The notes under the pieces are model-generated. The model was not told the DNA's origin. It did no database searches and saw only the letters and a program-made list of their open reading frames with translations. Source: Xanthostigma xanthostigma (taxonomy: Eukaryota; Arthropoda; Insecta; Raphidioptera; Raphidiidae). From it: a DNA stretch of 64,000 bases. The stretch is taken from assembly GCA_963575645.1 (NCBI GenBank), contig OY754469.1, forward strand, positions 49,868,753 through 49,932,752, read 5' to 3'. Both the position numbers and the translations under genes were made by a program. The stretch's first letter is position 1. Each line of letters starts with the position of its first letter. Below are positions 24,897 through 56,717 of the stretch, piece by piece.

Positions 24897-25055
24897 AATC
24901 TAATAGTTTCTGCCCTTACTTGATGAAAATCCATTATAAAATAAAATAAATAAAACAGTTAAGTTATCTGATGAAGCTGCTGTGACAGCGAAACATATGT
25001 CATATTTTTATAATTAAAGTGAAAATATTTTTTTAACTTAATTGTTTTATTTATT
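24897..25055 (+). mobile_element. Short hammerhead-bearing retro-insertion (159 bp)
   Basis: Flanked by the direct repeat TTACTTTATAGGA (24884-24896, 25056-25068). It contains 25-bp inverted arms (24942-24966 and 25034-25058) that enclose a hammerhead core and ends TTGTTTTATTTATT, like the Penelope-like 3' ends elsewhere in the window. Confidence 0.75.
24968..25001 (+). ncRNA. Hammerhead ribozyme motif
   Basis: CTGATGA, one extra A, stem II GCTG/CAGC (loop CTGTGA), GAAAC, a 4-base loop ATAT, then GTC. Stem III is the 2-bp AC/GT. Stem I starts with 3 bp and continues in the 25-bp arms after an internal loop. All core residues (CUGANGA, GAA, NUH) are present. Confidence 0.75.
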
Positions 25056-25109
25056 TTACTTTATAGGAGACCTTTTTTGTTTCCTTTCTGTTAGCTTAGA
25101 AAGCTAGTC

Positions 25110-25411
25110 CATAATTGATCGTATTTTCTCATGTATCTATTAATTAACTATATGAATCATTGCCTATCTACTCAATGCGCGGTGAGTGAACGCAACAAAG
25201 CGTATCGAAAATATATCCGCGTCTTTTTCTTCGATGTAATTCCCTGATTTCTCCGATGATAGGATTGGTTGACGTACTTGCATTCAATCTGAACAAAGTA
25301 TCTCCGTTTCAAAAACTGTGCCTTTTTCTATGACGTAAAAAAAGACAGAAGTATATTATGTTCGATTGGATTTTATTCCTATGCTCAGTATAGAATAAAA
25401 GTATATGTATT
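25110..25411. repeat. Dispersed repeat (CATATACTTTTATTCTATAC family)
   Basis: It matches 54748-55145 in inverse orientation over ATGAATCATTGCCTATCTAC, CAATCCTATCATCGGAGAAA (complement) and the end ATGCTCAGTATAGAATAAAA. A short third piece is at 45117-45210. No TIR or coding region was identified. Confidence 0.65.
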
Positions 25412-25419
25412 TTCTATAC

Positions 25420-25747
25420 CTGTGATGTCAAATATACGGTCCGTGGGCCGTATCCTGTCCTCAAGTTATCTCAATACGGCCCGTGACCAGAATCTATCCA
25501 GTGGGGATTTTAGACACCTGACATCAATGAGCTTATCAAAAACAAGAGACCTCGGGTGTCTGAATCCTCAAGCTCAAGATAATTTTATTACCCAGCTAGT
25601 TATATGAAAATTGATTTAAACTAAATAAATAAAGATTTTAATTTAGTATATTGCGTGTTTCAGTTTTAATTTAGAATCTGGCCCGCTAACACCCTAAATC
25701 TTATCGATGGACAATGGCCCTTTAGAAAAATCAGTCTGACACCCCTA
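25420..25747. mobile_element. hAT-type MITE (family B, GGCCCG-rich)
   Basis: Termini CTGTGATGTCAAATA and AGTCTGACACCCCTA, with 8-bp duplication TTCTATAC (25412-25419, 25748-25755). The interior has GGTCCGTGGGCCGTA and TGGCCCGCTAACACCC. Confidence 0.8.
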
Positions 25748-25755
25748 TTCTATAC

Positions 25756-26988
25756 GACGATATCAGTCAAGGAAAATTAGACTTTGACTTCAAAAACATT
25801 TGTTAATATAACTATAAACTACTTATAATATTCACATGATATACAAGATGAAATAAATTCGGGGCATTTATCCGGGGCATATCTATATATTAATACGAGA
25901 TACGGGGCTTTAATCCCGGAAAATCCGGGGCGAATGGTCAACCTATATATATAAATAAATCAATAAACATAAAAATATGTAAAAATGATTGACTTCAAGA
26001 ATGATGCCCCGCAAAATTAGTATTCATTTCTTGTTTGTTCGTTCGAACAAAAATAAAAATATTGCATGTAATTGCCGTGTTTTGCGATTCAATACAGATG
26101 ACAAAAAGTTGTAAATTTGTATTCGCTTTTACTTGCAAAACTATGTGTGCATACAAATTGTAAAACAAAATTGGATTAGAATTTAATCTGTTGTTATTTT
26201 TAACAACGGGTCGTATATCAAGCTCAGGACGCTACTGAATACCAAGCGTCAGGTTTGAGTCACTTGCAAATTTGAAATGGATACCCCAGTATAAAACTCT
26301 ATACACGTGAATCGGCTTTAAGTTTACAGTAAATATCATGCATACCTACAACTTACAGACGTGTATTAAAAAGAAAAGGCATCGACTTTTGATGTTTGAG
26401 AAACGACCGAAAAATGTTTGCGGCACACATTTACAAAAACGGTCTGAAAATCCCATTGTCTTTAATAAACAGAAATTGTAAACCGGGTTAGCTTGTTTTT
26501 TTTTCATTTTATTGACGTGAAAAATCTATTGGCGCGTTTTGTTGGGAGTAAAATCGTGCAGCTGCAGACATGACACTTTAACGGAAAGAGGTATAATTGG
26601 ATTAAACATGGCTTTAGTTCAAGGCGACATCTAGATAACTGCAGGGCGAAATTTACTTACAAGTATTTCGTTAGATGCGTTGGATTAGGTATAACTTGGC
26701 TTTTGTTAAAGGCGACAACTAAATGACAGGGCAAAATTTAGTTACAGGATGAAATTTATATACCTACTATCTTCTTGTATGAGAAATTCTAATTTGAAGA
26801 AAATTTTAAATACGGCCCTGTATGAGCATTCAAAAGTCTAAAGGGTTCGTTTGCAAATCTATTTTACTGTTATATTTGCAGTGCCACAGTATTTAATATT
26901 CATGATGCTAAAATACCGTTAATATTGTTTAAATCTTTAAATTACCTCAGAAAAGACAACTCGTCAACGAAACCGTACCTACCTCTTG
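25756..26988. other. Gene-free stretch
   Basis: AT-rich. A few CGGGGCAT repeats near 25861-25935 and a degraded GGCGACATCT-type Helitron relic around 26600-26760. No exon. Confidence 0.45.
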
Positions 26989-27938
26989 TGTATATGTTAC
27001 CGGCAAAGCCCGTTACGCAGTCATACCTAGGTTTGTCTAGGCAAAGTCCGCATTGCCGGGCCACTTTAGGCTAAGTCGGAAATTAGTTGATATTTCCGAC
27101 ATTGCCTGCACTGTTGTAAGACAATCTTAGGTTTACCAAACATGTAGCAGGCAAACTCCGAAATAACCTACCGCATTACTATCCTACCTACTGTCAATAT
27201 TATACCTATGTACGAGTAAGAAGCACAGAATGCGATAGAAAAAAAAACACTAATTTGTATTAATAATTTGTTGCTTAGTGCTTTAATCATAATATCTCTT
27301 CCAGCATGACCACATTCCTTGTGAGCATTATCTAGCACCTCAAACAATTCTTCATTGGGGACAAAGTATTTCACTTCAGTGACTTGCGCAGACAATGGCA
27401 AAATTAACTTTTTAATGCCCCCAACAAGTAACACATCGTAACGTTTGAGACGCCGGTATTGAAGAGTTGTTTTTTTGGCAACCTGCTTGGCTTCTTCAAC
27501 TTCTTTAATTAATGCCTCGTACTTCTCTATCGATGGAATGTAAAAAGAATTTATTGGTTTCTGCATACTCTCTAATTTCTCCAAAAAGCTCGCCTTCATT
27601 TCACCCACGCCACTCATATCTACTTGCATATGTCTTTTTGGTCACAAATCCAATAAAGATTAAACCCAACTGAACACAGCGGCCGCTTAACCCAACTAAA
27701 CACAAAAGTCGATGCAGAATGGGAATTCAGTGACGTCGCCTGGAATCGGAATATCAACTTATTTCGTAGTTTGTCTGCTACACATCTAGCAAACCTAAGA
27801 TTGTCGTACCACAGTGTAGGCAATGTTCGAAATATCGAATAATTTCGGACTTTGCCTAAAGTGGCCCGACAATGCGGACTTTGCCTATAGGCAAACCTAG
27901 GTATGACTTCATAACGGACTTATCCGGTAACATATACA
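26989..27938 (-). mobile_element. Integrase-bearing cut-and-paste transposon, internally deleted (Ginger-like)
   Basis: Long TIRs of about 150 bp start TGTATATGTTACCGG at both ends and repeat GGCAAAGTCCG and GCCACTTTAGGC. Between them a minus-strand ORF (27168-27629) encodes the N-terminal part of an integrase-type transposase of the KRBA2-like group. Confidence 0.7.
27168..27629 (-). CDS. Integrase-type transposase, N-terminal part (KRBA2-like)
   Basis: A 153-codon frame inside the transposon 26989-27938. Residues about 27-113 (INSFYIPSIEKYEALIKEVE, KKTTLQYRRLKRYDVLLVGG, VKYFVPNEELFEVLDNAHKE, CGHAGRDIMIKALSNK) match my memory of the conserved start of KRAB-A-domain-protein-2-like integrases, including the first half (His..His) of the HHCC zinc-binding module. 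The catalytic DDE core is absent. After about residue 120 the frame continues into unrelated sequence. This is a transposon relic, not a host gene. Confidence 0.65.
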   Translation of the reverse strand: MQVDMSGVGEMKASFLEKLESMQKPINSFYIPSIEKYEALIKEVEEAKQVAKKTTLQYRRLKRYDVLLVGGIKKLILPLSAQVTEVKYFVPNEELFEVLDNAHKECGHAGRDIMIKALSNKLLIQISVFFSIAFCASYSYIGIILTVGRIVMR

Positions 27939-28482
27939 TATTATGAATAAATAATCTCGTGTCTCACAATTAGGTATTTTAGTAAATCTTGGCATGTTGT
28001 TTAATTTTTTTGATAAATTACAAATGTCCGGCAGTTAAAAAAATTTACCAGGTGATTAGGGCTACCAGGCGTCCAGCTTTAGCCGGACATGTTTGGCTTT
28101 TTACAGCCGCGTGTCCGTCCAAATATTTACAAGCCCGGTTTTCGTTAAACTGTCAATGAAATTTCAAGGAAAATGTTGCTTGTGATAAAGTAAAATTGCC
28201 AATAATTCATACCTACTTATGGAATTTTGTTGTTTCCCTAATTGAAATGCCAAAGCCAAACAGTAGCATGTAGATATTATTTTAAATTTTTTATTTTAAT
28301 AAAGATCCTTTCGTTTTTCCTGTCAAAATAATGAGAAGATGACTAGTTGGGGTTTGTTATTATCTATTTAATAGAATTTCGTTGTTAAAATTGTGATTGA
28401 TTAGTATAAAACCATTATAAAAATAACTTTTTATTAAAAAAATAGTCCAACTTTTAGCGATTTAACGATTAATTATTCTTAA
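27939..28482. other. Spacer with a hAT-like terminal fragment
   Basis: TAGGGCTACCAGGCGTCC AGCTTTAGCCGGACA near 28057-28090 resembles one end of a common hAT-type MITE. The opposite end was not found. The remainder is featureless. Confidence 0.35.
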
Positions 28483-28817
28483 TCTATTACTAATATATAA
28501 AGCTGAAGAGTTTGTTTGTTTGAACGCGCTAATCTCAGGAACTACTGGTTAGAATTAAACATTTTTTTTGTTGGATAGTCCATTTAGGCTATAGGCTATA
28601 TAATATCACGCTACGACCAATAGAAGCGGAGCATCAATGAAAGATGTATAAATCAAAACTTTTTCGTCCGACAAAAACTTTTGAACGGTAACTCCGATCA
28701 TCATGAAATTTGGACACAACATTCATCTCGGTAAACGAAGATGAACGTGCGTACTCATGTCCCTCCCCCTCCATTCGTTCTTTTGCACTCGGTCGAAACC
28801 GGGCGGGACCGCTATAG
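28483..28817 (+). mobile_element. Helitron-like element, copy 1
   Basis: TCTATTACTAATATATAAAG CTGAAGAG...GAACGCGCTAATCTCAGG to ...CGGTCGAAACCGGGCGGGA CCGCTA. It is nearly co-linear with 59595-59923 on the other strand. The 3' end is slightly altered (CTATAG for CTAG). Confidence 0.65.
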
Positions 28818-28985
28818 TTTTTGATAAAGACATGCCATGATGTAACTAATATTGGTGCAAAAAAGCATTGTATTTAAATAGTAAATCTTTGATTAACGTC
28901 TGATTAGAATTCTTCAATAAATAAAATTATCGACCAATTTTTCAGACAAATATAGGTATTATCAAAAAATAATAATTAATACATT

Positions 28986-29017
28986 GACGTTTCGGTCTTG
29001 ATTTGGATTTTCTTCAG
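28986..29017 (-). ncRNA. Hammerhead-like motif, left arm
   Basis: Minus strand: CTGAAGA, A, AATCC/GGAC(C) imperfect stem II, GAAAC, GTC. The stem II mismatches suggest it is decayed. It mirrors 29211-29242. Confidence 0.5.
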
Positions 29018-29210
29018 AACTGATCTAAAAGATATAAAAATAATTAATAATTAATTTCTAATTCGTATTTTAAAATTATTCGCTTTGTTTTTAAATTATA
29101 TTCAAAAATTGAAAAAATAATAACAATTTTTGAATATAATTTAAAAACAAAGCGAATAATTTTAAAATACGAATTAGAAATTAATTATTTTTATATTTTT
29201 TAGATCAGTT

Positions 29211-29242
29211 CTGAAGAAAATCCAAATCAGGACCGAAACGTC
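29211..29242 (+). ncRNA. Hammerhead-like motif, right arm
   Basis: The same core as 28986-29017 on the plus strand. Stem I has two pairs plus a wobble only. Probably inactive. Confidence 0.5.
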
Positions 29243-29609
29243 AATGTATTAATTATTATTTTTTGTTAATATATTTGTCTGAAAAATTGGTCGATAATTT
29301 TATTTATTTAAATAGTAAATCTCCGAAGAAAATGCACCCAGCGCATTGAATCATCGGAATAATAATTTATTACTTTTCAATCTTGAAAAATCTAGCATAA
29401 TGAAAACGTTTTATAAGAAACTGGTTATTAAGTTTTTGACAGCTTTCAGGTACTTTTTTCACGGAAACACCGCAAAATGTTACAACGTTATTATCTGCCT
29501 ATAAGATCAATATAAACGTCCCGCCCAGATACGTTTTTTTCAATAGACAAATTGAGGCGTTGGTTCATGTTGCTGTAATAAAACTCCATACACTATTCTA
29601 TTGTAGACG

Positions 29610-29741
29610 TTATACGACGTGTCCTCCAATAAACCCGTCTTCACCGACAACTTCTAGTCCACCATTCTCGTCTATGAATGCCACGAGATACATAAAGACG
29701 ACGTTGGCATGCGAGGAAAGTAACATAAAGCCTTGCATCCA
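29610..29741 (-). CDS. Candidate exon, unidentified
   Basis: A minus-strand 44-codon frame after a good acceptor (ACTTTCTTCAG at 29742). It reads WMQGFMLLSSHANVVFMYLV then AFIDENGGLEVVGEDGFIGG, ending HVV-stop. A possible donor (GTATAA) overlaps the stop. Base composition is more balanced than the surroundings. I do not recognise a family; it could be an exon, a transposon remnant or chance. Confidence 0.25.
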   Translation of the reverse strand, partial: WMQGFMLLSSHANVVFMYLVAFIDENGGLEVVGEDGFIGGHVV

Positions 29742-29769
29742 CTGAAGAAAGTTTATAAAAACCCACTGA

Positions 29770-30669
29770 TTGATAGGCGCTTAGCATACCTATACAATCT
29801 CTAATATATATTTTGTAAGAAAGGCGTAGTGCACCTACTGTACAGCGTACACAAGCTGTGGTATTCCTTTGTGTCCACGAGTGTAGCTGCGTCTTCCCAC
29901 GTGACATGCGGCTGACCAATGACACGAGGGGACGCGTGGAACTAGCTAGCAATTTGTATAAGCCATTTCTTAAACTAGCTAGGTGTCTTATAAGTCAATT
30001 GATTTATTATGTTAAGTCTAATTTTATATTACGTTTTATGATGATTAATTGATCCTAATTTTTGGCAAAACAAACAAATTATTTTATTATTATTATCATT
30101 ATAATATAGGAATATTAGCCAAGGGACTTTCTGTACAAAAAGGCAAGTAGTCTTAATTTCTTGATATAATTGTACTCTAGAATCAAAGTTTGCTACCTCT
30201 ACGCGCTACTTGGTATCGCAAAAAAAATGTTTTTCAAAATAGCTCAACAATAGTACCTATATTGTGCAACTAGTGCGACAATGCCGCACGAGTTGCACAT
30301 ACTATTTTTATTACGAATTAAATTAAATTAAAATTTTATTACGAATTAAAAAAAGAAATTAGAAGTAATAAAAATTAAAATTTAAATCATTAAAAAGTTG
30401 AAAATTCAGTTAAAATTGTTATTGTATTGGTAACTATGGTAACTCTGAATTTGCGTGCGGCAAACAATAATTTCAGTGCGACAAATAAAGTTTCCTCACG
30501 CAAATGAAAATAGCTACTTTTCAACTGTAACAGCGTGCGTAAACATATTACTTTTCCCGCATGAGTAATAAAAAAATATTATAATATTGGATATCTATGT
30601 CAAATTTAAAGATATCGAAATAATTCTTTCGGCATCTAAAAAGATATCCTTACTATCTTTATGCCGTGC
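29770..30669. other. Gene-free stretch
   Basis: AT-rich. Nothing supported except a small inverted motif GTGCAACTAGTGCGACA / CACGAGTTGCACA near 30267-30300. Confidence 0.45.
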
Positions 30670-31175
30670 CAATAGGTCATATGCATGATTTTTTTTTATA
30701 TTTTTAATAGATTATTTAGTCAACCATAATACGGAAAAAAATTGATAATCATTTAAAAATGTAATATTATCATAAGAAAAAAAATATTAAATTCCACATT
30801 CAAAAATAGACAGTTTAAACAATCGGCCATGTTCGCGGGCTTATGTGACGTCATGATATACGATGCATGCCAACCTTGATGTCAAATTGTCAATGTTCTA
30901 AATGAAGTTTATTTGTTGTTTTCTCTAAATACTGACATAATCTTACTGTGAGACGACACAGTCGTCATGAAAACTGTTGTTGATATATACTCTGACGTCA
31001 CGATGCGTTTTGAAAATTCGAAAGTAGCGCTTATTTTCTACATTTCTTTTTTATTATTTGTATTTTTTTCAGTGATTAGATTAATAAAATAACCATTACG
31101 TTATGATCAAGAACTAAAATATATTTCGAAACAAAAATTTTAACCAATTTGGAGTTTTATGCATATGACCTATTG
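30670..31175. mobile_element. TIR element, 17-bp termini
   Basis: CAATAGGTCATATGCAT at the left and its exact complement at the right. The interior of about 470 bp has TGACGTCA twice. No ORF, and the target duplication is unclear. Confidence 0.55.
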
Positions 31176-31568
31176 TAACATCTATATTATTATAGTATTT
31201 CAGTCACTATATGCGTCATTGATTGATAGTGGATAACATGCTTTCAGACACTTCAACGAGACGACAGATGCTTCTCTATCCCTACAAATGCATCTTGATC
31301 GTATTTATTTATGTGGAAGTTTTTTATTTTATATAGTTTACTTCAATTTAGTTCAAAAACTGGTATTATAGTAAATGTTAACGAAGCGGCTAATTCTTTT
31401 ATGAAAATATATATGTACGTGTTTTTTACCTGTTTGATTTCTAAACTAGGTTTTTATGTGTTCATTTATGAAACACAGGTGATTGCACACCATGGTACTT
31501 TGGATCGGAAAAAGAATCAACATATACGACTTTAAACAAGAATTGATATTTATTATAGCCTAAGATCT

Positions 31569-32104
31569 CACGTACCACTTTTCATGAAGTGTTTGATTCA
31601 CGTGGAAATTTTGACCAGTGGTACAGATAGGATAGATGAACAAGAAAAAATATGTTTGCCTGCAGACTTACTGTGGTAGTTACTGCGCATACAAGTAATG
31701 CGCCCAAAAATTTATGTCAAAAAAAATGTTTGATTGAAAGAGATCGCATCTAAACATGCTTTGATTAATTGGAACATATTATGTAGGCAGGGCCCGATCT
31801 AGGGGAGGGCAAACCGGGCAATTTCCCGGGGCGGTAAAATTGAGGGCGGCGCGGCGTCGGCGCCGAAAATTTAAAAGATGGTTAAACAAAAAAAAATTAC
31901 ACCATCTATGGAACAACGCATGGGTAAAAAGGCGGCAAATATTATTTCGGCCGGAGCGGCGAAATAGCTGGATCGGGCCCTGTATGTAGGTAACAATAGC
32001 AATTATCGTATTTAATACTAGCCATTACCTGCACACCGCACGCTATTTAATAAAAAAACAATAATTTCTACGTGAATCAAACACTTCATGAAAAGTGGTA
32101 CGTG
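31569..32104. mobile_element. TIR element with nested hAT MITE
   Basis: About 42-bp termini: CACGTACCACTTTTCATGAA GTGTTTGATTCACGT and complement, with one or two mismatches. The hAT MITE 31788-31982 lies in the middle; without it the element is about 330 bp. Confidence 0.7.
31788..31982. mobile_element. hAT-type MITE (family C), copy 1
   Basis: Termini CAGGGCCCGATCTAG and CTGGATCGGGCCCTG, 195 bp, GC-rich (GGCGGCGCGGCGTCGGC), with perfect 8-bp duplication TATGTAGG (31780-31787, 31983-31990). Copy 2 is at 53333-53522. Confidence 0.9.
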
Positions 32105-32105
32105 G

Positions 32106-33216
32106 TCATCCAACTATTAGGTAATATTAGCAGACGAAAGGTTTCAGCAGTACAAAACTACTTCAAGCGCTGAAAGGATTCGCTAAATACGAAGATATGA
32201 TTTTATTTTAAAAATGCATAGTTGAAAAGACATTAAAGAAAATATCCCTCCTATATCCGAAACTGCTGAGTCTAAAATTTTGAAAAAAATAGGGAATTTA
32301 AGGCCTCATTGATTGTTTATATGGAAAATCTAAACGAAAATCCTACGTCCTAAAGTTAAAAAACGGAATGGAACAGAACCCTCTCCACCAGAGCGCAGCT
32401 CGCACTTGACCGCGGTTATTTACAAATATCAAACTGCCCACTTTAAGATTTTTGAGTATTCGTTTTTGTCCAGACTGTGTATGAAAGTATAGGTACCTAT
32501 AGCAAATCTTCGGTAATTTTATTTTTAGAAATAAAAGATCAGAATTAATAATCCTATACAGGCCAGAAGATTAAGAAACCTCTTTATGGCTTACAGTGAG
32601 TCTGCATGATAATTATATTTTTCAAATTTCTTAGGATAGATTTTACCACTGATAAATAGGAAACCGGATACGATCTAGTATTTTAGTTTTGTATAGCACC
32701 GATTATCATGCAGGGTTTTAAAACCTAAATTATAATTGTGTTTAAAATGAGCTGTAATCCTCCTGAATATGTTGAGAAAATATAGCGAGCTATTAAAAAC
32801 AATAAAATTGTATAGGTATCTGGTATCTGACATGCTTGGGGATGATGCAATGATTTGACAGGTCAATCAGGTTGTGATGGGATCTTGGGCCCCAAAAAAG
32901 CTAGTTACTGCCCTGGGTAGGTATACCTCCAAGATTTTCTTAAAGCTTAATATATTAAGTACTACCCTATTAAAGCTCAGTTCATACTTTTCTGTGGAGT
33001 GTACCTACTAATTTTGTGAATATTTTTCATTGGTTTTCTTATATTGGAAAATAGTTTGGAAGATATATATATATACCTACCTACATATAAGTATATATAC
33101 AGGTAAATATAGATACCAAAATATTATTTGACAGTGCAGTTTAGCGATCCTCATGGTTGTTTTATGTGAATTAAATTATGGTAAGTTAATTTTATTATTA
33201 CTGCAGTTTTATTATA
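32106..33216. other. Gene-free stretch
   Basis: AT-rich. No exon or clear repeat recognised on either strand. Confidence 0.45.
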
Positions 33217-33543
33217 CAGAATGATTCAAAATTCCCGCAACGGCTTAATATTTCTTATCGGGTGTAAGTTGAACTAAAAATGTTTTTTTTAATCATTTTT
33301 CCTGTCTATCGAATAGCAAAATTAAATTTTAGGCCCTAAAAGGATCCCGTAGGGTTCAACTTTGAAATTTTAAATATTTCATATTCGTACTCTTTAAAAT
33401 TTCAAAGTTGGGTCCTACAACAAAATCTGCTTTTGCCGTTCGATAGACAGGAAAGAATTATAAAAAAAACATTTTAACATTTTTAGTCCGGCTTACCCGA
33501 TAAGAATAATATTAAACCGTTCCGGGACTTTTGAAACACTCCG
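33217..33543. mobile_element. Tc1/mariner-type MITE with long TIRs
   Basis: CAGAATGATTCAAAATTCCC and, at the other end, CGGAGTGTTTCAAAAGTCCC (complement), TA-flanked. The inner arms (ATTTCAAAGTTG / CAACTTTGAAAT, CTGTCTATCGAA) make it a near-complete foldback. Confidence 0.8.
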
Positions 33544-35460: not shown

Positions 35461-35985
35461 AATACTGCTCATATCCTGTTCCGTTGAATGAAACGTTCTG
35501 AGTTTGTACACGTTTGGAACACTGCTTTCACTAAAATATACGTCTCTATTATTGTCATAGTGTCGCTATATGTGTTGACAAGTGAGCATCATTATATTTG
35601 ACAACTGAATATCAATACGTTTGTCTTTTGTCGTCGCCGCTATTGATTGATTTATCATACAAAATAATGGATTTATTTGTGTCGTGTTATATGCTTGTAC
35701 TGTTTACTGTTTTTAATAATATTGTGACTAATAATCTTGAATTATTTTTTTGTGGATTATAACTGAACAGAATTATTTTTATTATTAATAGCCCAGCTAT
35801 TTTATTGTAAAAAGATTTTTTGTGTGCATAAATCGTCCGTCATGGACTGTTTTTAAATTTTGTTGTATTTGTTATATTATAGATAGTAAGAGATTTATAA
35901 GACGCGACGAGGTTAGAAATTACTGCAGTGTTTTTTCGTGTTTGTACAGGGTACAGAAACCGATAGACCTATGAAAGTAGATGAC

Positions 35986-36556
35986 ATGGTGACTTATTTT
36001 AACCCGATGGCCATGTACAGACAACCGGGTGTAATGAGTGCGGGCACTATGAACGGACCAATTGCTTCCCAGTTTCACCATCCGGGTAGCCCGTCGGCGG
36101 CGAGTTGGGCTTACACGACCGGCTATCACCAACCGGCACCGCATCAGATGGCACCCGCCGGCCACGGCCACCATCAGCACCAGGCCTGGCCGGACGAGGG
36201 ACACCATCAGATTGTACCGCCGCCCCCGCCTCCTTCGTCGTCGTGGCACCACGCGATGTATCCGCAGGAATTCGCAGACTTCAGCGCGATAACGGGACCG
36301 GCTCCCGGACAGAATGTAGGACAGCAGATATTGGGACACGAAACCACGTTGCCTTCGCCGCCGATTACGGTTTCCGGAAGTGATTTGTCGAGTCCTGGCG
36401 GCGGCGCCGGAGGCGGTAGTGTTTCGCCGCCGCAACAACAACCGAGAGGTGCGTCGACAAGTAACATTAATTCACAGGGAATGCCCGCGCGTCCAGGTGC
36501 TCGGAGTCCGTATGATTGGATGAAGAAACAGTCTTATCAGAGCCAACCAAATCCAG
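35986..36556 (+). CDS. cad: Homeobox protein caudal, first coding exon (partial)
   Basis: A ParaHox/Cdx transcription factor that patterns the posterior embryo. This exon encodes 190 residues plus one base (phase 1), up to the donor CCAG|GTATGT at 36557. Start taken as MVTYFNPMAMYRQPG; an in-frame ATG at 35971 (MKVDD) is an alternative. Order: His/Pro/Gln-rich activation-type segment (31-70), PPPPPP (78-83), the caudal signature LPSPPITVSGSDLSSPGG (122-139), a Gly-rich stretch, and the hexapeptide region SPYDWMKKQSYQSQPNPG (174-191) that recruits Extradenticle and precedes the homeodomain. The exon is GC-rich against its surroundings. The KTRTKDKYR homeodomain exon was not found downstream, so the next intron may exceed 27 kb. 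Confidence 0.93.
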
Positions 36557-36922
36557 GTATGTTTATCAATTAATTTATCATTTATGCTTGCGTATATATG
36601 TTCTTTTTAAAATTACATTGGGTACAGTGAGGCAAGTGAAGCTTTTGATAACTCAACGAAATTGACAAAAACCAATTAATTAATACTTATTCACGAGATT
36701 TTTATCCGTACTCTCCACAAAATAGCTGCTTTTCACTTCATTTCGGTCTAACGTCCAGTAATAACAGTATAGGTTACCTATAGGTAATTTATAGGGGGTA
36801 TGACAAAAAGTATTTTAAAATGTTTTATTCTACACGAGAATTTAAAACTTCGTGATAGTATGGGAATACTTGAATTTTCTAACTTTATTTTGACCCTCAA
36901 TTGTAAAAATTCCATTTTATTA
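36557..36922 (+). other. Start of caudal intron
   Basis: No exon or element recognised. Donor GTATGTTTATC. Confidence 0.5.
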
Positions 36923-45657: not shown

Positions 45658-45661
45658 TCCT

Positions 45662-47254: not shown

Positions 47255-47265
47255 CTATCTGCGGT

Positions 47266-48110
47266 GATACCGTATAAAATTTTTGGTGAAATGATAGCTA
47301 CCTACTTTCCTGTAAAAATATAATCGAACTAGTGTCCACCGCTTTAACGTTTATAATTGCCAGGACAACACATAATATAAAGATTGTATCAATTACAGGG
47401 TTTTCCACAAGAAGATTAACAAAACTTAAATTTTAAACCTTTATTCACCAAACAAACCCGTTTCACCGCGAGCCGTATGCACATAAACAAACTTTACTTT
47501 TTAATTGCCTAAAATACCTAACACCTAACACTCGCAGGCAAATTTTATTATACCATTTAATGGTCCATGCATTTTTTTTAAATAAGGGGTTATATATTTT
47601 ACGCATTTCTGGAACTTGAAAATTATCAATTTCGACCACTGTATGTCGAGGTTTGACACACTTGTCAATATGTATAAGCAGCGAATAGCGATACTTATCC
47701 AGTTAATATAGACATACATATTTTTTCTTTATTGTGTTTGCTTCTGCTAGCCAGTCAATTTCGATGGGTGCTGAAATCGTTATCTTCGCTTCATCAAACA
47801 CATTAAAAAATTAATGTTCACTTTTATCTTTTTTATGTTTTTACTTTGGTGGTCGATTATGTATGTAAAGTCGCCTGTCTGATGTCTGTTAACGGAAAAT
47901 CTTATTCATTTACATTTATCATGTAGTAGTATAGGTAAAAGCGCTACATTTCCAAACTATAAATTTAATATTGGAAGGGAGTTTTATAACATTGTAGGAT
48001 ATCTATTTTTTATTATTTATTACAAAACTGAATTAATCAATAATCAATACCTACTCACTTATTGTACAAAATAGTAACGTGTCCTCTAAAGAAAGAAAAT
48101 AAAAAAAAAA
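47266..48110. other. Gene-free stretch
   Basis: AT-rich. Nothing recognised. Confidence 0.45.
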
Positions 48111-48673
48111 AATGGCTGTCTGTAAAGTCGGTTTACGGACGATAGTTTTACGTGATAACGTATTCCGTAATACATAACCTAAATTTATATAATAATTATA
48201 ATAAATCGAATCTATGATATTGCATCTTTCGCTTCAAATTTAGGTTAATTTTATTTATTAAAATTACTCACCACCTATAATATAATTGTTTTTTTTAACT
48301 TTCTTTCTTTCGTATTTATTTTAAGTCTCAAAGATTAACTGTCATAATATTTTGAAAACAATTGTTTCACTGTTTATATAAAATTCCAAAACCTACTTAC
48401 AATACCTACCTATTTAAGTATTTTCATACGTCAAAAAATTGATTTTTATAATGATAAAATTTGTATGAAAACGATTTTTTCGAGAGATGAGACCTAGCTA
48501 AAACGATTTTTTGCCCCCCAAAATCCCTTTTCAGTAAATTTCATCCAAATCGTTAGGGCCGTTTTCGAGAAAAGCACGCACAGGGTCAGGCGGAACGTTA
48601 CACTTTTTCGTGCATGCAGGCGGTGTTTTATTAAGATTGGTGATTCATCAATTTATAAGACGTTATCACGTCA
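48111..48673 (-). mobile_element. TGACGTGATAACG-family element, copy 6 (long, different interior)
   Basis: Minus orientation. Both constant ends and the subterminal GGTTATGTATTACGGAATAC are present, but the middle of about 330 bp is unrelated to that of copies 4 and 7. Confidence 0.75.
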
Positions 48674-48676
48674 AAA

Positions 48677-48867
48677 TTATTGAAAAAAAAACCCGACTGC
48701 ACAAAAATGAAATAAATAAAAAGAGGAAAACAATTCGGAAAATTTCAACATGCAGTGGCTGGGAACCCATTCAAAAACAAAAGAAGGAGTCAATTTTTCC
48801 AACTGTTTTCCTCTTTTTATTTATTTCATTTTTGTGCAATCGGGTTTCTATTTTTTTCAATAATAAT
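48677..48867. repeat. Palindrome adjoining copy 6
   Basis: Arms ATTGAAAAAAAAACCCGACT GCACAAAAATGAAATAAATA AAAAGAGGAAAAC and complement, centre near 48772. It starts four bases after the element end. Confidence 0.75.
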
Positions 48868-48869
48868 TT

Positions 48870-49427
48870 GTAAATAATTATGCACCGGTTCCATTCTACT
48901 GGTCCTGAAATGATGGCGATGTCCTCTGAAACAGGCGACTTCTTTTCAAACGATACTTGTTTATTTATATAAAGTCCTGTAACTCGTTTTACTGGCAATT
49001 TAAATTCGATCTGTGGATCGTTTATGGTACGTAATTAATACCAACATTAAAATACTATTTTCTCTGTTTTGCATGTTTCACTATGATTAATAATAAACTG
49101 CTAAAACCATAACTCTTCCTTTTGGCTTTGTCGTAGTCGGGTAAAAAATAGATACCTACATTTATTATTTTATATAAATATAACAAAAACTCTATTTTTG
49201 CTGCGTTTTTTCTTTCTAATGTATTTTCCGCAAAACATCAATCTATAATTCGAAACCAACAAAAATTGCTTAGAACTATTTTTAGATAAATATTTTTTTA
49301 ATCTGTATTGAAAAATTATTTCTCTGCATCTCTATCTATTTTATTTTAAACTGTAGATAGTTCGCTTTACTCAAACTTGTCGTTAATTGATTTTCCTAGC
49401 GTCATTGTGACCTTTTTCTGCCGTTTT
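48870..49427. other. Gene-free stretch
   Basis: AT-rich. Nothing recognised. Confidence 0.45.
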
Positions 49428-49652
49428 TTAGACAGCATCGCGCTCTGCTTGCTGCGTCATCTCGAGTAACAATTCTCGAAACCGAAATCGACAGAAAACG
49501 TTCCTCGCGATATTGCCCTTGCTATAATGCTCGAACAATAACACGAGTCCGGCTCTGTTTCGTAATAATTTGTGTTCCACGACTTCCAATCCATCGTCGG
49601 CACCTTTGATATACATGTCTTGTGTTATGTGTGGACAGATAATATGAAGCAA
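49428..49652 (-). CDS. Unidentified conserved-looking coding fragment
   Basis: A minus-strand 74-codon frame ending in TAA. It reads HIICPHITQDMYIKGADDGL, EVVEHKLLRNRAGLVLLFEH, YSKGNIARNVFCRFRFRELL, LEMTQQAERDAV. Its GC is clearly above the surroundings and its composition is that of a soluble helical protein. It could be a last exon (a possible acceptor CACACATAACACAAG lies before D12), a retrocopy or captured sequence. No further exon was found upstream. I do not recognise the family. Confidence 0.4.
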   Translation of the reverse strand: MLHIICPHITQDMYIKGADDGLEVVEHKLLRNRAGLVLLFEHYSKGNIARNVFCRFRFRELLLEMTQQAERDAV

Positions 49653-50084
49653 TGTTTGATTAATGACTAGATTGTCACACTACTGTCAAGTGTCAACATT
49701 GACTATACTTCGTGTCCCTTATAACAGTGCCGAAATTTCAAACATTTATTGATTTTTCTTAGATTTAATCAAAATGTTAAACCTAACTGATCATTATCTT
49801 TTACTTAATTTTGTAGCGAAAAATTGCTTAAAGTGTCGCCGTCAATATTCGCATATATAAAAATATAACCTCCTTCAAAAAAGTCATTAAACGCAGGAAA
49901 ATAAAATTTTGAGGTTAGCGCTTGAAGGAGATTTTGAGAGGACTGAATTCCAATAAATAAAAATATGGGATATTTTTTATTTGGATACGACCAGGCTAAA
50001 ATCCGTATCCTGTTTTAAAGATAATATTCATGAAAAAACTGATATGAGATCGAAATCACGAACAAAGACTGATTGGTTAAATAA
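49653..50084. other. Gene-free stretch
   Basis: AT-rich. Inverted motif AACCTCCTTCAA / TTGAAGGAGATT at about 49867-49935. Confidence 0.4.
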
Positions 50085-50395
50085 GAAGATGTGGATCTAA
50101 AAGGTTCAGAAGTTAGTCGCAAAGGCACATTTTAGAGCCGTTGATACTCCCACCACCTCGTAGCTACATGCACGGAACGTGCGCTCGTCGGTGATTGGCC
50201 GTGATCGCTCGTTGTCTTTGTCACTTGTCGCTTTCCTGCTTTAAAGTACAGTCGAGTACGCTATTGTCAAGTTGTATTTGCTATGCTAGTTTTGTTGAGT
50301 TGCGAGTTTGTAGTTTTTCAACAGACTGTACAAGCGTAAGCCTGCATTCGCATCTACTTCCGAGCCTTTTAGATTCGTGATGCGTACTATATTTG
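50085..50395. mobile_element. TIR MITE (ACGCGCCACGAATCTAAAAG family), copy 1
   Basis: Ends GGATCTAAAAGGTTCAGAAG and CCTTTTAGATTCGTGATGCG. The body GGTGATTGGCCGTGATCGCT CGTTGTC matches 59086-59403 (inverse) and 61312-61530. Confidence 0.7.
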
Positions 50396-50399
50396 AAAA

Positions 50400-51737
50400 G
50401 GTTATAGGTTATATTGCGATATAACAGAGGGCTATCATTCCCGAACACCGGCGGGTAAATACGATTAATTTATCATTTACATTCCCACGAAAACTGCATC
50501 GCCGTCATTTTGTATCGTTTAAGCTATAGTTTTTGTGGGACATCTTATATAAATTCAACCACAAGTATACTTACATTAAAAATGTATATGGCGATATATA
50601 CAGTTATTTATTATGGGTAGGCAATATGCACTGACGTTGTTTCGCAATAGGTATGAAGTTTTAGTGATCACTATATAATAATGTCACAAGTGTTAAAATG
50701 GAACAAAATATTTGACTTGTTGAGATATTAATTACTTACAATTGAAAACGAGTTTTCAAAACTCTTTCATGTAAACGATATTACCGGCAAGTATTTTTTA
50801 TTGCAAGCTTTTATTAGAATAGAATAGAATAGAATAGAAATAATTTATTGCTAAGGCAATCGGACCAGATTCAATCCATACGAATTGTCCTTAAATTACC
50901 ACTGAACTTACCACATTTGTCAGTCAGTCAGTCAATCAGTCTATCAGTTTGGGTCAAATCTTGCTATAAAAATTTATACTAAATCGAAGCTAGAGTCATA
51001 TAATATATATCTAATATCGTTCTAAATCCAATATGGCGGACGCCCCAAGATGGCGGATTACTTTTATTCTTCGCAACCCTCTTGACATGGTTATCAAATG
51101 AAAGAGTTTGACGAACGGAATACGACGTCATTGTAAACCCAATATGGCGGACGCCACGTGTCCGATGGACTTGAAATTTTGTACACATATATTATGTATT
51201 CCCGATGGCAATACCATGACTCAATCGTTTTTAAAATAAAGTAATCAATTAAGTTTAATAAATTAATGTTTTAGGTGTAAACATTTTGAAAGATTTATTT
51301 TGTGCATATTTACTACTGCTGAAAATATACGCAGATATGAATTGGTGCTAGGCTCAAATAGTCCTGACTGTTGGTGGCCTTAAAAAAAGCATGATTATAT
51401 ATATACTGTTAGAGATTCGTCGGCATTTAGCACAGAAGAGAATCTCTAACGAGATTCTCCGATATTATATAGATGGGTAAATTTCCTAGCGGAATGTATT
51501 AAATGGAACGAGAATTAATTCTTTTGACCTTTGATGTGATGAAGATGCATTCTTCATCACATCAACCAAATTTTCTGAAGAAATTGCCCATTAGAGTTGT
51601 TCTTATCGTTGCAACTGCACTAAAATTGTCAATTTACTGCTGATAAATTTTATATAAATCTCGCATTTGCTTTCATAATATAATTTATACATGCTTTTAA
51701 TATTATTTGTAAACTGATTGATGTATTTCTGTTATAG
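50400..51737. other. Caudal intron/distal DNA, few repeats
   Basis: A TAGAA pentamer run (50817-50840), two CCAATATGGCGGACGCC motifs (51030 and 51140) and a hairpin at 51531-51565 (15-bp perfect stem TTGATGTGATGAAGA). No other feature. Confidence 0.45.
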
Positions 51738-51797
51738 AAATCGCACCACTCTCATCTACTCCCTCGATCTTAGACTTTACCAACACTGACCTCACTG
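51738..51797 (+). CDS. Candidate 60-nt in-frame exon of caudal
   Basis: Acceptor TGTATTTCTGTTATAG, 60 bases of balanced composition, donor G|GTATGG. Joined to the phase-1 donor of the caudal exon it reads E-IAPLSSTPSILDFTNTDLT-G and leaves phase 1 again, so it would insert 20 residues between the YDWM hexapeptide and the homeodomain without breaking the frame. Inferred only; no homolog is known to me. Confidence 0.35.
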
Positions 51798-53332
51798 GTA
51801 TGGCTAATAATATAATCACATTCTAATATTTTACTCGAATTTATCGTTGTTATGATTGCATGCTATGTTCTTTAAAAAAAAAACTATTGAAACTGAATTT
51901 TAAATTTGCACGTAGTTTTTAGTAATTTGATAGTTTTTGAGATATTCTCGTAACGTTTCTAAATGAACTTTTTTGGATGCTATAATTTATATTCTTTAAA
52001 TTATTATTTTTTTATTACTTAATCTGTGTTTATATTTTTAATTGTCTTATTTTGTTTGTGTAGTTAAAATAGAAAATAAGCTTTAAGTTCAATTTATAAT
52101 AAAAAAGTGTCACTAAGTTAAAGGCAATGATGCCCGACTACCCACCAGCTGTCGGTTTTATGTTTGTAGTTGATATAGGATATAGATGACATACCGGGCA
52201 GTAAGCAATAAAGAAAATTGTAATTAGAGATATTATTGATGTATAAATTAATATGAAAATTGTACTGTTCTTGTTTTAAATTTCTTACTTCGTATTTATC
52301 CAACAATAATATTCTATCGCGAGGCCAATCAAGTATACGGTGCCATTTACATACGACCTTAATTTTTTTATATAACATGCGCTCTAGATTCGCGAAACCC
52401 CTGTAGAACTGTTTGAACTGCCCGCCACAAGCGTCAATTCAGCGACAATGCCATAGACACTGATGACCTCAGCTGTTGAGCGTCTATAATCTATCTCTGC
52501 TATTTTGGCATGTGAAATCTTTTATAATCAACTGTCATAATTTTAAGATTCTGAGATGGTTTTGTGTTTGTCCATTTTCCGTTGCTATATATACAAATTG
52601 CAGATAAAATAATGTCGAAATATTGTAATTAGTAGATTTTTTCAAAATGAATATTGTATATTTTGATAAACATCGCAACATTCTATTTGATTAAGCTCTA
52701 AAAAAATGTTTTTTTATCTAAATTTCCGTTTGTTTTTATTTTTCTTCCCATTAACGAATGTTTTATTTTGGATACAATTTATAATGAAATTACTGTTATA
52801 ATTATTAGCTAATTAAATAATAATTAATCGATATTCGATAAAATGTATGTCGTTCCAAATAAATAATTTTTATAGTTCTACCTAAATCTAAAGTCTAGTC
52901 CACATTAAATGAATACCTTAACAACATCTTAAAGTGCCTACGGCACGATTTACAGAAAATCTGAAATGTTTTGAAAGTGATTACATTGCTATCATAGATA
53001 GGATTTTTTTAAACCAAAAATGGAGTGAGCTGATTTGCAGTCTATAAGCCAACGATATGCAATTTGTGCGTCGAGTTTTTAAAATTCAAAACGAAACACA
53101 AACAAATATTTATTAATGTGAACAAGACTGAACACATTCTGATACATGGTCCAATTAACGGAACATTTTGATGATAATTTTACACATTAAAATTATAAAA
53201 TGCGTATACTTCTAATTTTGAAATAACGAATTATGTTTACTATACTATCTGTTGCATTCTTTGGACGACGCACCCTGGGTTGACACAGTTTGGCCCGGTC
53301 GTGAAATGTGACGAAAGATAGGAAGAAATAAT
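51798..53332. other. Gene-free stretch
   Basis: AT-rich. A minus frame at 52240-52378 (KIKVVCKWHRILDWPRDRIL LLDKYEVRNL) is open and protein-like but unidentified and lacks clear splice sites. Confidence 0.35.
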
Positions 53333-53522
53333 CAGGGCCCGATCTAGGGGGGGGCAAACCGGGTAATTTCCCGGGGCGGCAAAATTGAGGGCGGCGCGGC
53401 GTCGGCGGCGAAAATTTGAAAGATGGTTAAAAAAAAATTACACCATCTATGGAACAACGCACGGGTAAAATGCGGCAAATATTATTTTGCCCGGAGCGGC
53501 GAAATAGCTGGATCGGGCCCTG
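53333..53522. mobile_element. hAT-type MITE (family C), copy 2
   Basis: CAGGGCCCGATCTAG...CTGGATCGGGCCCTG, about 95% like 31788-31982. The 8-base flanks (GAAATAAT, AAAACGAT) match only in part. Confidence 0.85.
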
Positions 53523-53757
53523 AAAACGATTTGCACTGCAGCGGATCTGTTGATCACAAAAATGACTTGAGCGGGCTTTCATTTTCTTTTTTTTAAAACG
53601 TACGTTATTGTTTTTTTGTTTTATTATAAACTTTTGGATTTTACACTTTTGTGTATTCAGCCACTAACTAAACTATCCCTGACAGATTGAATGAGTGATT
53701 ATAGATGCTCGACAATCGAGTTCATTAGCGTCAAATCCCGGATCGAGCCGACACACT

Positions 53758-54010
53758 ATAATAATAATAATAATAATAATAATAACTTTATTTCACATTG
53801 ACTATATAGTGTGTGATTCGTCATAAAAAGTTAATAAAAGTTACATTAAAATAAATAAAATTTACATTAAAAATCACATATATAATTCATTGATGTTATA
53901 AAAAGCTTGGTCGATCAGGAATTTTTTTAATTCTTTTTGAAATACAGAGGCCTTTTTAGTATAAGCGTTGTGCTTAAAATATTTATTCTGTGTATATATA
54001 ACTATATATA
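53758..54010 (-). mobile_element. LINE 3' end fragment
   Basis: Minus strand: SVFQKELKKFLIDQAFYNIN at the end of the ORF, a short 3' UTR and an (ATT)n tail (53758-53786). The layout matches 36923-37680. Confidence 0.65.
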
Positions 54011-54219
54011 ACTATAACTACTCTAAAACAATCAAACTGGAACTATCTAGCGTCTATAATGTACAATTTTTTTCTTTCGATAATAAGTTTTCTAAACAAA
54101 GGTGCAATGAAAAATTGAAATCTTTTTTAGTTTCCTGTATTAACTATAATTTTGACTCTATATCGAAAGTTAAATTTAGTAGATATACTTTATTAAGTTT
54201 GTAATATAAGTATAGAATT

Positions 54220-54747
54220 TACGCGTATTAATAAAACAAAAGCCTCAGTTGCCATATTTTAAATAAAAAAATCCTGCACCTCTTTTGATTTAAATGTGTT
54301 TTAAGAGTAATGATGGAGTCCTCTGAGATTTGATAGTGGCTAGTTCAAATACTTTTTCATATACTATGTATTTTGCAAACCAAACCCGGAATCAAATTTT
54401 AAAAATATTTTTTGAATAATAAGCCATAGTAAATTATTATATATTATATTAAGAAAAAACTGTTTAGGTCATGGGCTAAAAATATTATTTAACTTGTTTA
54501 TTAATGTAAAGTTAATAAAATATGTGATAAAGGTAAGAAAAAAAATCCCATGTTAATTAAAATCTAAAATACAAAAGCGATAAGAAATATATTTATATAC
54601 GAATTTTTAAATACCTGATATAGTCAATTCCAATCGACATTATAGTCGCACGTTAGACTTCTGTTATTTTGAAAAGCATTTAATATACCAAATATTCGGT
54701 TTTTGGAATTTGTGTAACGAATTTGAAATCGCGTAGCGTTACCACCA
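54220..54747. other. Gene-free stretch
   Basis: AT-rich. Nothing recognised. Confidence 0.45.
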
Positions 54748-55145
54748 TATACTTTTATTCTATACTGAGCATAGGAATAAAATCGCAATCGAACTATTAG
54801 GGTGCAAACATATACTTCTGTCTTTTTTACGCCGTAAGCACTGGCGTATCTAGGAGGGCAAAACAAGCACGCGGGGGACCCGGCTTAAGAAATTTCTAAT
54901 TTGCCCTCTCCTGGGCCAAAAGCTGGGTACGCTCATGTTAACGTCATAGAAAAAGACAAAATTTTTAAAACAGAGATACTTTATTCAGATTGAATGCAAG
55001 TACATCAACCAATCCTATCATCGGAGAAATCAGGGAATTACATCGAAGAAAGAGACGCAGATTTATTTTCGATATGCGTTGTTGCGTTCACTCACCGCAC
55101 ATTGAGTAGATAGACAATGATTCATATAGTTAATTAATAGATATA
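54748..55145. repeat. CATATACTTTTATTCTATAC repeat with internal insertion
   Basis: It matches 25110-25411 in reverse. About 105 bp at 54839-54945 (CTGGCGTATCTAGGAGGGCA ... GCTGGGTACGCTCATG) has no counterpart there and may be a separate small insertion. Confidence 0.6.
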
Positions 55146-55274
55146 TGGTTACCATAGACAGTCAGTGACGACCAGAACTAGGAAATGCTAAGAACTTTGT
55201 GCTTGTAATAATGCTTAAAGCAGTTTTTACATCAAATGATCGAAGCTTATAGCACTTGCTAGTAAGCGCGTAAG

Positions 55275-55320
55275 CATTATTTATTTATTTTATTTATTTA
55301 TTTATTTCCTCAAAAAAATA
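55275..55320. repeat. TTTA microsatellite
   Basis: TATT/ATTT repeats followed by TCCTCAAAAAAATACAAT, possibly the tail of an old retroposon on the minus strand. Confidence 0.6.
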
Positions 55321-55504
55321 CAATTTATATAATGTATAATTCTTACATAGAGGATATCCTGCCCAACTTGCTTAAAAGGATTCAACAAGCTTATTAAACA
55401 TTAAGAATGCTTAATAAGCGCTTTCAATGCTTAGCGAGCACTTTCAATATTTAAAAATAATATTTCGTGCATATCTCATAATTTGTAATTAGTTTGTTTA
55501 AATA

Positions 55505-55540
55505 TATATTAAATATATATTAAATATATATTAATTACCA
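55505..55540. repeat. AAATATATATT short tandem repeat
   Basis: Three copies of TTAAATATATA. Confidence 0.7.
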
Positions 55541-56035
55541 ATATTGTTCATGTTCAAAATTTACATAATAACTTGCTGGAAGTTAATATCTATTTAAGAA
55601 GTTATATTAAAATGCGTAATACTTTGTGCTTTTTTTGAGCACTTTAGCTGTGAAGCATTTTGAAAAACGGAAGCTCGATGCTTGGTGCTTCAAGCATAGG
55701 TTCAGTGCTTTGCTCAGCTCTGATAACAACAAAAACTTGTTGCGAGTTAGCTGTCTCGAACTCTATCTTATTTATTTACTCGCGGCTGTTGTTTTTTTCT
55801 TCTTTTGCTATACTAATCAGTAAAATAGGTATAACTTAAAAAAAAGAAAAGCACTCCGGGAGTGCCAGCAGAAGTGAAAACTTGAATATTACCTCTACTT
55901 GAAGATTGACTCTATTCAATAAATAGAGTAACTGTGATCCATTGAAGTTAATGATGAGTATTTGGAAAGAATTCCGTGGCATAAGGATCGAAAATGAAGC
56001 AATACTGAGACTATTTTAAACTTGCATTTAATACT

Positions 56036-56066
56036 AACGTTTCGATACGTTTTGTATCATCTTCAG
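56036..56066 (-). ncRNA. Hammerhead ribozyme motif (left arm)
   Basis: Minus strand: CTGAA GA, extra T, stem II GATAC/GTATC, GAAAC, GTT. Mirror of 56098-56128. Confidence 0.6.
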
Positions 56067-56097
56067 AGTGTTCAACATGTGACAGCATTTGAACACT

Positions 56098-56128
56098 CTG
56101 AAGATGATACAAAACGTATCGAAACGTT
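56098..56128 (+). ncRNA. Hammerhead ribozyme motif (right arm)
   Basis: CTGAAGA, extra T, stem II GATAC/GTATC with loop AAAAC, GAAAC, GTT. Stem I is strong: GCATTTGAACACT (56085-56097) pairs with AGTATTAAATGC (56129-56140) apart from one mismatch and a bulged G. Stem III is only ACGT. Confidence 0.7.
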
Positions 56129-56717
56129 AGTATTAAATGCAAGTTTAAAATAGTCTCAGTATTGCTTCATTTTTGATCCTTATGCCACGGAATTCTTTCC
56201 AAATACTCATCATTACCTCTACTCTCCATCCGTCTTACGAATTTTCGATCAGGTCACGTGTCCTGACGCGAGTTTAACATTTTTTACCCATTACAAAAAA
56301 AGTGTACAACGCCGCTAAAGATATTTTCACTTCAAAAAAACGATATTACGCGTGCTAAGCCGCAGGTAAAGGCTAGTATACCGTATTAACGATTTATAAA
56401 TCTAGGATTGCTAGGACTCATTTATGGTTTTAATTGCGCTGTTGTTACGTTTCATGAACAAGTTAAAATACAAACATAAATGTCAAAGTTAAAACCGCGC
56501 TTATGATTCAAGGTAAATTATTATTTACGAAATGCCGCGTTGGTCGGCTGTAGAAATTAGCCTGTGGGTATTTTTGTAATATGAAATATAATTATAATGA
56601 GAAGGTTGTATATAATATGTAAGTGCCAAGTTGAGCAAAAAAATACTTATATATCTATCTGTTACATACGTTTTCAATTATCAAATTTAATTTTTTTTTA
56701 CCCGTTAGCATCCCGTG

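Follow-up and report, generated by a model that had tools for sequence, protein, structure and literature searches.

Hammerhead-bearing palindromes of Xanthostigma xanthostigma as probable products of Penelope-like priming at one distal and one proximal site

How do insertions that hold little more than a hammerhead ribozyme come to lie, often as head-to-head palindromes, in an insect genome? The question is raised by a stretch of 64,000 nucleotides of Xanthostigma xanthostigma (contig OY754469.1, positions 49,868,753 to 49,932,752; the whole stretch is termed the window hereafter), in which a sequence-only reading had proposed a non-autonomous class of ribozyme retroposons mobilised by a Penelope-like element (PLE). 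A search of the genome (623 Mb in 28 contigs) revealed that the three insertions concerned are copies of three multi-copy families, designated A (query 55900-56211; 55 matches, best 40 of 1226 candidates, most at 96-99% identity), B (query 28889-29305; 60 matches, best 40 of 2406 candidates, most at 90-95% identity) and C (query 24897-25054; 88 matches, best 40 of 267 candidates). As the family copies were taken from the best-scored candidates, these numbers are lower bounds. We consider it probable that the insertions result from target-primed reverse transcription by a PLE starting from both target strands; the fixed ends, the duplications and the head-to-head order are observed, and from these we infer the enzyme, the strand assignment, the joining and the template source. 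The insertions and their parts in the window are the following.

24883-24896, no strand: left target duplication of insertion C, 14 bp, TTTACTTTATAGGA (direct reading and repeat test)
24897-25054, no strand: insertion C; the left arm carries the distal-start tail (about 40 nt, with ATGGATTTTCATCAAG in antisense), the right sense arm runs from the hammerhead to the proximal start site
24968-24994, plus strand: hammerhead core of C, CTGATGA ... CGAAAC (pattern search)
25055-25068, no strand: right target duplication of insertion C, 14 bp (direct reading and repeat test)
28872-28888, no strand: left target duplication of insertion B, 17 bp, ATTTAAATAGTAAATCT (direct reading)
28889-29305, no strand: insertion B, a head-to-head palindrome with a tail on the left arm and none on the right arm
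28989-29017, minus strand: hammerhead core in the left arm of B (pattern search)
29211-29239, plus strand: hammerhead core in the right arm of B (pattern search)
29306-29322, no strand: right target duplication of insertion B, 17 bp (direct reading)
55888-55899, no strand: left target duplication of insertion A, 12 bp, ATTACCTCTACT (direct reading and repeat test)
55900-56211, no strand: insertion A, a head-to-head palindrome; left arm from the distal site (tail of about 50 nt), right arm from the proximal site
56039-56066, minus strand: hammerhead core in the left arm of A (pattern search)
56098-56125, plus strand: hammerhead core in the right arm of A (pattern search)
56212-56223, no strand: right target duplication of insertion A, 12 bp (direct reading and repeat test)

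The direct repeats of 13, 17 and 12 bp reported earlier for these insertions are all present, that of C measuring 14 bp and not 13 bp; the automatic repeat test, which worked with limited flanks, recovered 11 of the 17 bp of insertion B. Likewise, each insertion carries the one or two hammerhead cores ascribed to it (one in C, two in B and two in A by the core pattern) and contains hardly anything besides the ribozyme leader. An inverted-repeat search of the window confirmed the head-to-head palindromes of A (55946-56075 / 56089-56218, 98%) and B (28957-29063 / 29165-29271, 92%), whereas C, with its short left arm, is palindromic in part only.

The evidence that carries our reading comes from the outer ends. 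For family A, 36 loci besides the window were read (20 of 9 kb and 16 of about 1.5 kb), and the arms were mapped on the full-length arm of locus L047 (positions R, 390 nt as spliced, with the hammerhead core starting at R224). The resulting set comprises 38 insertions, of which 29 have two arms with legible outer ends, 7 have a single arm and 2 lack one of their ends. For family C, 7 loci besides the window were read, and the B copies are those lying in the fetched loci. The distal end of A is located at R387-390, after a tail with a ACTCTATT/AATAGAGT inverted repeat, and the proximal end at R338-349 as aligned, its last bases often being common to the flank; in all three families the two start positions lie about 30-50 nt apart on the RNA. 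Of 56 two-armed insertions with readable ends, 55 combine one distal with one proximal end (29/29 in A, 18/19 in B, where ends were read by eye, and 8/8 in C), and carry a pseudo-long terminal repeat (pseudo-LTR) leader with the tail on one inverted copy, as expected of PLEs, whose optional tail measures 30-40 bp. If each arm chose freely and evenly between the sites, the probability of at least 54 mixed insertions in 55 would be 1.6e-15; this value precedes the late addition of L065 (one distal and one proximal end; 13-bp repeat with one mismatch), which is also outside the repeat counts given below. Moreover, a genome-wide search by exact pattern (without a positive control of that size) yielded no A palindrome with two distal ends, while the same gap range holds 26 spliced palindromes. 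Single-armed A copies use either site, the distal one in five cases (L023, L031, L033, L046, L050) and the proximal one in two (L037, L052). The count of end types excludes these seven copies and L028 and L049, which have lost one outer end, in A; in B it excludes the single-armed L012, L035, L039 and L057, those copies of which an end is missing, falls outside the locus or was left unread (L036, L045:1-53, an older copy at about L045:490-1009, the upstream copy of L059, L060, L061, L062, L066 and window 15274) and the short partial matches in L032 and L034.

The flanks point in the same direction. Repeats of at least 8 bp were found beside the ends of 28/29 two-armed A, 6/7 single-armed A, 16/18 B and 8/8 C insertions, with medians of 11-13, as against 53/812, 3/42, 19/306 and 13/56, respectively, in controls with swapped flanks; the two-armed A insertion that failed, L041, shows by eye a 12-bp repeat with one mismatch. 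In all, 58 of 62 insertions tested have a repeat of at least 8 bp, in agreement with the variable duplications of about 8-15 bp known from PLEs. We give almost no credence to the idea that the copies are palindromic DNA transposons moved by a transposase, in the manner of miniature inverted-repeat transposable elements, which could account for short inverted repeats and many near-identical copies but not for unequal ends, a variable interior junction, single-armed copies, duplications of varying length and the precise absence of the intron-like segment described below.

These ends would be explained if Penelope-like machinery, that is, a reverse transcriptase plus a GIY-YIG domain, acted on both cut target strands. 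On a PLE-type leader RNA, the 3′ end of one target strand would prime cDNA synthesis at the fixed distal position and the other strand would prime at the fixed proximal position, about 30-50 nt upstream. Both cDNAs would then proceed through the uncleaved hammerhead towards the RNA 5′-end, and the free cDNA ends may thereafter join via short overlaps or a few extra bases; the product would be a head-to-head palindrome flanked by target duplications of about 12 bp. The template would be either the leader of a PLE mRNA or a short non-autonomous RNA with the same ends. LINE-1 twin-primed insertions likewise have inverted arms, which arise when the other target strand primes synthesis as well. That the second strand here primed at variable places on the same RNA, as in LINE-1, is nevertheless very unlikely: inverted arms joined at short overlaps between target duplications are what twin priming would leave, but in each of the three families the second start varies by no more than a few nt, and the RNA stretch copied is common to both arms. 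The distal and proximal ends match the two internal reverse-transcription start sites shown in vitro for the Anolis PLE (PAc), where both target strands were also extended (PMC11167929).

A further clue to the template came from locus L048, whose right arm alone contains a 75-nt segment (GTAAGT...TTACAG) at a place where its own left arm is exactly continuous. The segment recurs in the genome (47 matches, best 40 of 245 candidates), and the window and the 36 A loci together contain 49 exact spliced junctions versus 1 exon-intron junction, the loci having been found with a spliced query. We read the segment as a sense-strand intron; this GT-AG segment is precisely absent in most A arms. On that reading, the templates of A would be sense RNAs, frequently in spliced form. 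L048 combines a spliced with an unspliced copy and is the one insertion that indicates two RNAs, although switching between templates would account for it too. As a rule, a single RNA, or two of like kind, appears to serve both arms, since the splice state is mostly concordant and the variants of the two arms (weakly) agree. Such concordance, like the head-to-head order and the palindromes at the junctions, is also compatible with self-priming on an antisense template, in which the cDNA folds back and copies itself. This route was proposed for the Adineta Penelope palindromes, in an article that also describes the tail as optional on one inverted pseudo-LTR and leaves an unspliced sense transcript open (PMC3846280). 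For the insertions analysed here we regard self-priming as unlikely, because the exact loss of the GT-AG segment points to a sense, spliced RNA; moreover, fold-back should extend the copy through the tail into the primer flank, yet the second arm ends at an inner start site that is fixed, and L048 possesses one spliced and one unspliced arm.

The inner ends bear on the question of whether the ribozyme is cleaved before PLE reverse transcription. The 69 arms of the 38 A insertions end in R1-10 (15 arms), R11-40 (7), R41-181 (9), R182-230 (32), R231-262 (0) and R263-340 (6), with arms containing internal gaps counted by their farthest reach. The A copies were ranked by a query of about R200-341, so that arms ending there, including the zero at R231-262, are under-sampled; partner arms escape that bias, and the fixed 5′-end of the A leader is unaffected by it. 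Fifteen of the 69 arms stop within R1-10 and none extends beyond, indicating a common RNA 5′-end in A, which contradicts the lack of a length peak that the sequence-only reading had named as an argument against itself. In contrast, 0/69 A arms end at the predicted ribozyme cut (R250-262), and ribozyme cleavage therefore does not set the A arm ends. Because no A arm ends there, the templates were presumably uncleaved, in line with ribozyme mutants that still inserted (PMC11167929). The ribozyme core is also included in the 8 C copies read. Because only about 150-390 nt separate the start sites of C and A from the RNA 5′-end, the ribozyme leader alone would be the default product, and coding copies would need a longer, for example tandem, template.

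Three observations on the inner ends are added here. Almost half of the A arms (32/69) end in R182-230, just 5′ of the core or at its start, and in the 8 C copies read the arms extend little past that region. Stalling at stem I, another start of the RNA or mere sampling may lie behind this. In L047, where the two arms meet after reaching the RNA 5′-end, a run of AAT repeats connects them at the palindrome centre, perhaps through untemplated or slipped synthesis.

The pattern CTGANGA-N8..24-CGAAAC has 6 matches in the window (15274, 24968, 29211 and 56098 on the plus strand, 28989-29017 and 56039-56066 on the minus strand) versus 0.08 expected, and 0/100 shuffles reach 6. Intact cores are present in 54/58 motif copies of A, 23/26 of B and 8/8 of C, the four misses in A being arms cut at the junction. 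By sequence, a minimal hammerhead is thus present in A, B and C, with a stem III that reads as minimal. A stricter pattern with a fixed 5-nt stem-III loop has no match in the window, and Rfam yielded no match there at the gathering threshold and 22 at E <= 10, none of them to a hammerhead family, so that a canonical type I hammerhead is not indicated up to that E value. Several of the low-score Rfam matches to microRNAs lie on palindromes.

Minimum-free-energy folds of the raw stretches (six sequences, one of which, L047:560-700, is the upstream leader and not the ribozyme stretch) gave no clear hammerhead, and hand-set hammerhead structures score worse than the minimum-free-energy folds, so that folding alone is no proof of activity. 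For the spliced A stretch, the predicted fold comprises stems I and II. In the spliced A RNA, the predicted pairing probability amounts to 0.76-0.98 for stem II, 0.75-0.98 for outer stem I and 0.28-0.40 for inner stem I; in the unspliced RNA, inner stem I is lost (0.00) but stem II (0.62-0.82) and outer stem I (0.58-0.88) are retained. In the A leader, stem I is interrupted by the intron, and the 5′ strand of its outer part belongs to exon 1. These predictions suggest that the ribozyme of family A may be completed by splicing. For the PAc hammerhead, protein-assisted cleavage is reported (PMC11167929).

The source of the template was approached via the coding relatives of these leaders. The window itself contains part of one such relative.

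14880-15089 including the stop (open to 15086), plus strand: C-terminal tail of a PLE open frame, 5′-truncated copy (reading-frame search)
15274-15397, plus strand: hammerhead core to proximal start site of the same PLE copy as 14880-15089, no tail (pattern and comparison)

The fourth core at 15274, which had been placed downstream of a Penelope-like GIY-YIG tail, starts 185 bases past this stop. The fragment 14880-15397 belongs to a coding family, its C-terminal tail being found in the 150 scored places of 2717 candidates. In longer relatives, this B-type tail adjoins a GIY-YIG motif (Pfam GIY-YIG, E = 0.0018, 19.0 bits, below the 22.6-bit cut-off); other GIY-YIG copies in the genome exceed the Pfam cut-off. 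Coding PLEs with neighbours closer than 7 kb are arranged head-to-head in 21 cases, in tandem in 5 and tail-to-tail in 0, among 150 scored GIY-YIG places, and the B-type C-terminus gave 13 head-to-head neighbours and no other order within the same distance and number of scored places; both counts speak for the priming scheme outlined above. A tandem array at C3:18458536-18468421 comprises four copies at 3042-3043 bp spacing, with frames of 871, 888, 888 and 242 aa, and ends in an inverted copy; a second array, at C4:23143039-23148117, has an 804-aa frame and likewise ends in an inverted copy.

The leaders of short and coding copies are related in family B, for which the stretch from ribozyme to tail is 72-79% alike to that of coding PLEs in the copies compared. 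Locus L067 contains the start of an 822-codon B-type frame at a head-to-head junction with a perfect 57-nt inverted repeat (47-103 / 285-341). Here, AATTAAAGATTTG ends 26 nt before the ATG; compared with the end of the B tail, AATCAAAGATTTG, it has one mismatch in 13, a weak identification. The C tail holds an ATG with 12 open codons. The start sites thus appear to be close neighbours of the start codon, much like those of PAc, which are located 111-118 nt into the open reading frame (PMC11167929); from such a position, reverse transcription of a single mRNA would yield the leader only.

For families A and C, coding partners were sought by the length of the reading frame. None was found for A among 150 scored copies, all of them 100% ties among 2936 candidates: identical over 38 codons to the distal end, they close the frame beyond it after a median of 12 and a maximum of 110 codons (one frame). 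Nor was one found for C among 150 scored of 197 candidates, with frames of 20-143 aa (one frame). Copies devoid of coding sequence are numerous, which agrees with the sequence-only reading: the B-type PLE C-terminus occurs in 0/36 fetched A loci, where other PLE types may be present. These frames are what leader-only copies give, and they are compatible with a template that is the leader of a complete mRNA as well as with a short RNA of independent origin. The latter would define a separate non-autonomous retroposon family, in which a PLE acts in trans on a short leader RNA belonging to the family itself (about 390 nt long in A and about 150 nt long in C), the insertion mechanism being the same. 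We rate this as doubtful but a serious contender. The short frames of the scored A and C copies speak for it, and so does an insert shared by L025 (4878-5544) and L031 (3893-4574): both hold the same DNA insert of about 680 bp, 89% alike, at about R141, although flanks and target duplications differ, so that a marked source copy seems to have retrotransposed more than once. Conversely, the frame survey covered one reading frame, while the B-type PLE frame seems to start after the tail; the scored A copies being ties, a coding parent may lie outside them; and coding PLEs have a leader related to that of B. As for the class proposed by the sequence-only reading, its copies do look RNA-mediated and of PLE type, whereas its separateness does not follow, as leader-only products are also expected from ordinary PLE RNA. 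Tandem arrays of 150-450 bp units, as in retrozymes, were not seen among the A, B and C copies read, all of which are palindromes or single arms. On contig C11 (24550082-24550345), two A tail matches (24550082 and 24550232) lie 150 bp apart on the same strand, possibly as a direct leader tandem, and at C7:17753958-17757402 and C3:1485021-1488593 C arms stand head to head 3.4-3.6 kb apart, possibly with a coding PLE body between them.

Several results weigh against priming from both strands of the target on a PLE mRNA leader. L024 (a B palindrome, L024:3168-3288) is proximal/proximal with only a 6-bp repeat; it is the sole such palindrome seen and perhaps reflects a rare second route. In vitro, no difference in start sites was seen between the two target strands (PMC11167929). 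In the gap range 15-45, both arms are spliced in 26 palindromes and unspliced in 1, and none is mixed, a zero that is uninformative alone, as the range holds only one unspliced pair; in addition, 13 neighbouring pairs with both arms unspliced (one partner being partial) were counted by reading among the matches listed. At four diagnostic sites, 11/100 arm-to-arm comparisons differ versus 15.3% after re-pairing, and 53/2000 re-pairings are as low, which is weak evidence that the two arms of an insertion resemble each other slightly more than expected by chance. The minor base at R279 is shared in 3 insertions and split in 2, that at R332 is split in all 3, and sites 300 (CpG) and 337 (at the end of proximal arms) are doubtful. 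Finally, no coding element with an A or C leader was found among the candidates scored in one frame.

Going beyond target-primed reverse transcription by a PLE as such, it is quite possible, if a little less than evenly likely, that the integration complex contains two non-equivalent reverse transcriptases and uses each of the two adjacent start sites once, one for each target strand, possibly on two RNAs, with splicing perhaps completing the ribozyme in A. This rule is not stated in the titles or abstract openings of the literature searched, a scope that mostly leaves subscription papers aside.

With respect to the surroundings, about 12 B insertions lie in 180 kb (L021-L040, 20 loci of 9 kb chosen for A), which, if representative, would roughly amount to tens of thousands genome-wide. 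In L028, L030 and L045, A copies sit within B copies, which fits a preference for A+T-rich PLE leaders as targets. The window also contains a long inverted-repeat pair (107-645 / 14133-14611, 91-100% in pieces) that looks like an unrelated dispersed repeat, an API5 fragment (E = 3.7e-32), and a presumably caudal-like frame at 35917-36570, which has no Pfam match.

How the head-to-head arrangement and the one-sided tail of PLEs are formed is left open in the discussion of PMC3846280 and in the scenario of PMC11167929. Leader-only insertions are short and abundant, and family A is of recent origin, which is why the two ends of an individual event are open to direct reading. For the integration complex, these insertions yield a rule that can be tested, and they speak against self-priming on an antisense template. 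They also suggest a route by which an ordinary retroelement may seed a genome with ribozyme palindromes, with no need for a separate ribozyme transposon.

Metazoan retrozymes (PMC7229834) are likewise short, non-coding, A+T-rich and hammerhead-bearing, with a PLE suspected as helper. Retrozymes, however, form tandem repeats, possess canonical type I hammerheads and have circular RNAs. The copies read here are instead palindromic or single-armed, have minimal hammerheads and owe their ends to the start sites of reverse transcription. In comparison with PAc of Anolis (PMC11167929) and the Penelope of Adineta vaga (PMC3846280), they differ by the many leader-only insertions, by a tail on exactly one arm in 55/56, by one family with arms from spliced sense RNA and one mixed-splice insertion, and by the lack of a coding partner found for A and C. 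What they share with these Penelope/Poseidon PLEs are coding relatives of probable GIY-YIG association, a pseudo-LTR with a minimal hammerhead and an optional tail of 30-40 bp, the inverted head-to-head arrangement, duplications of about a dozen bp or fewer, and start sites near the start of the open reading frame.

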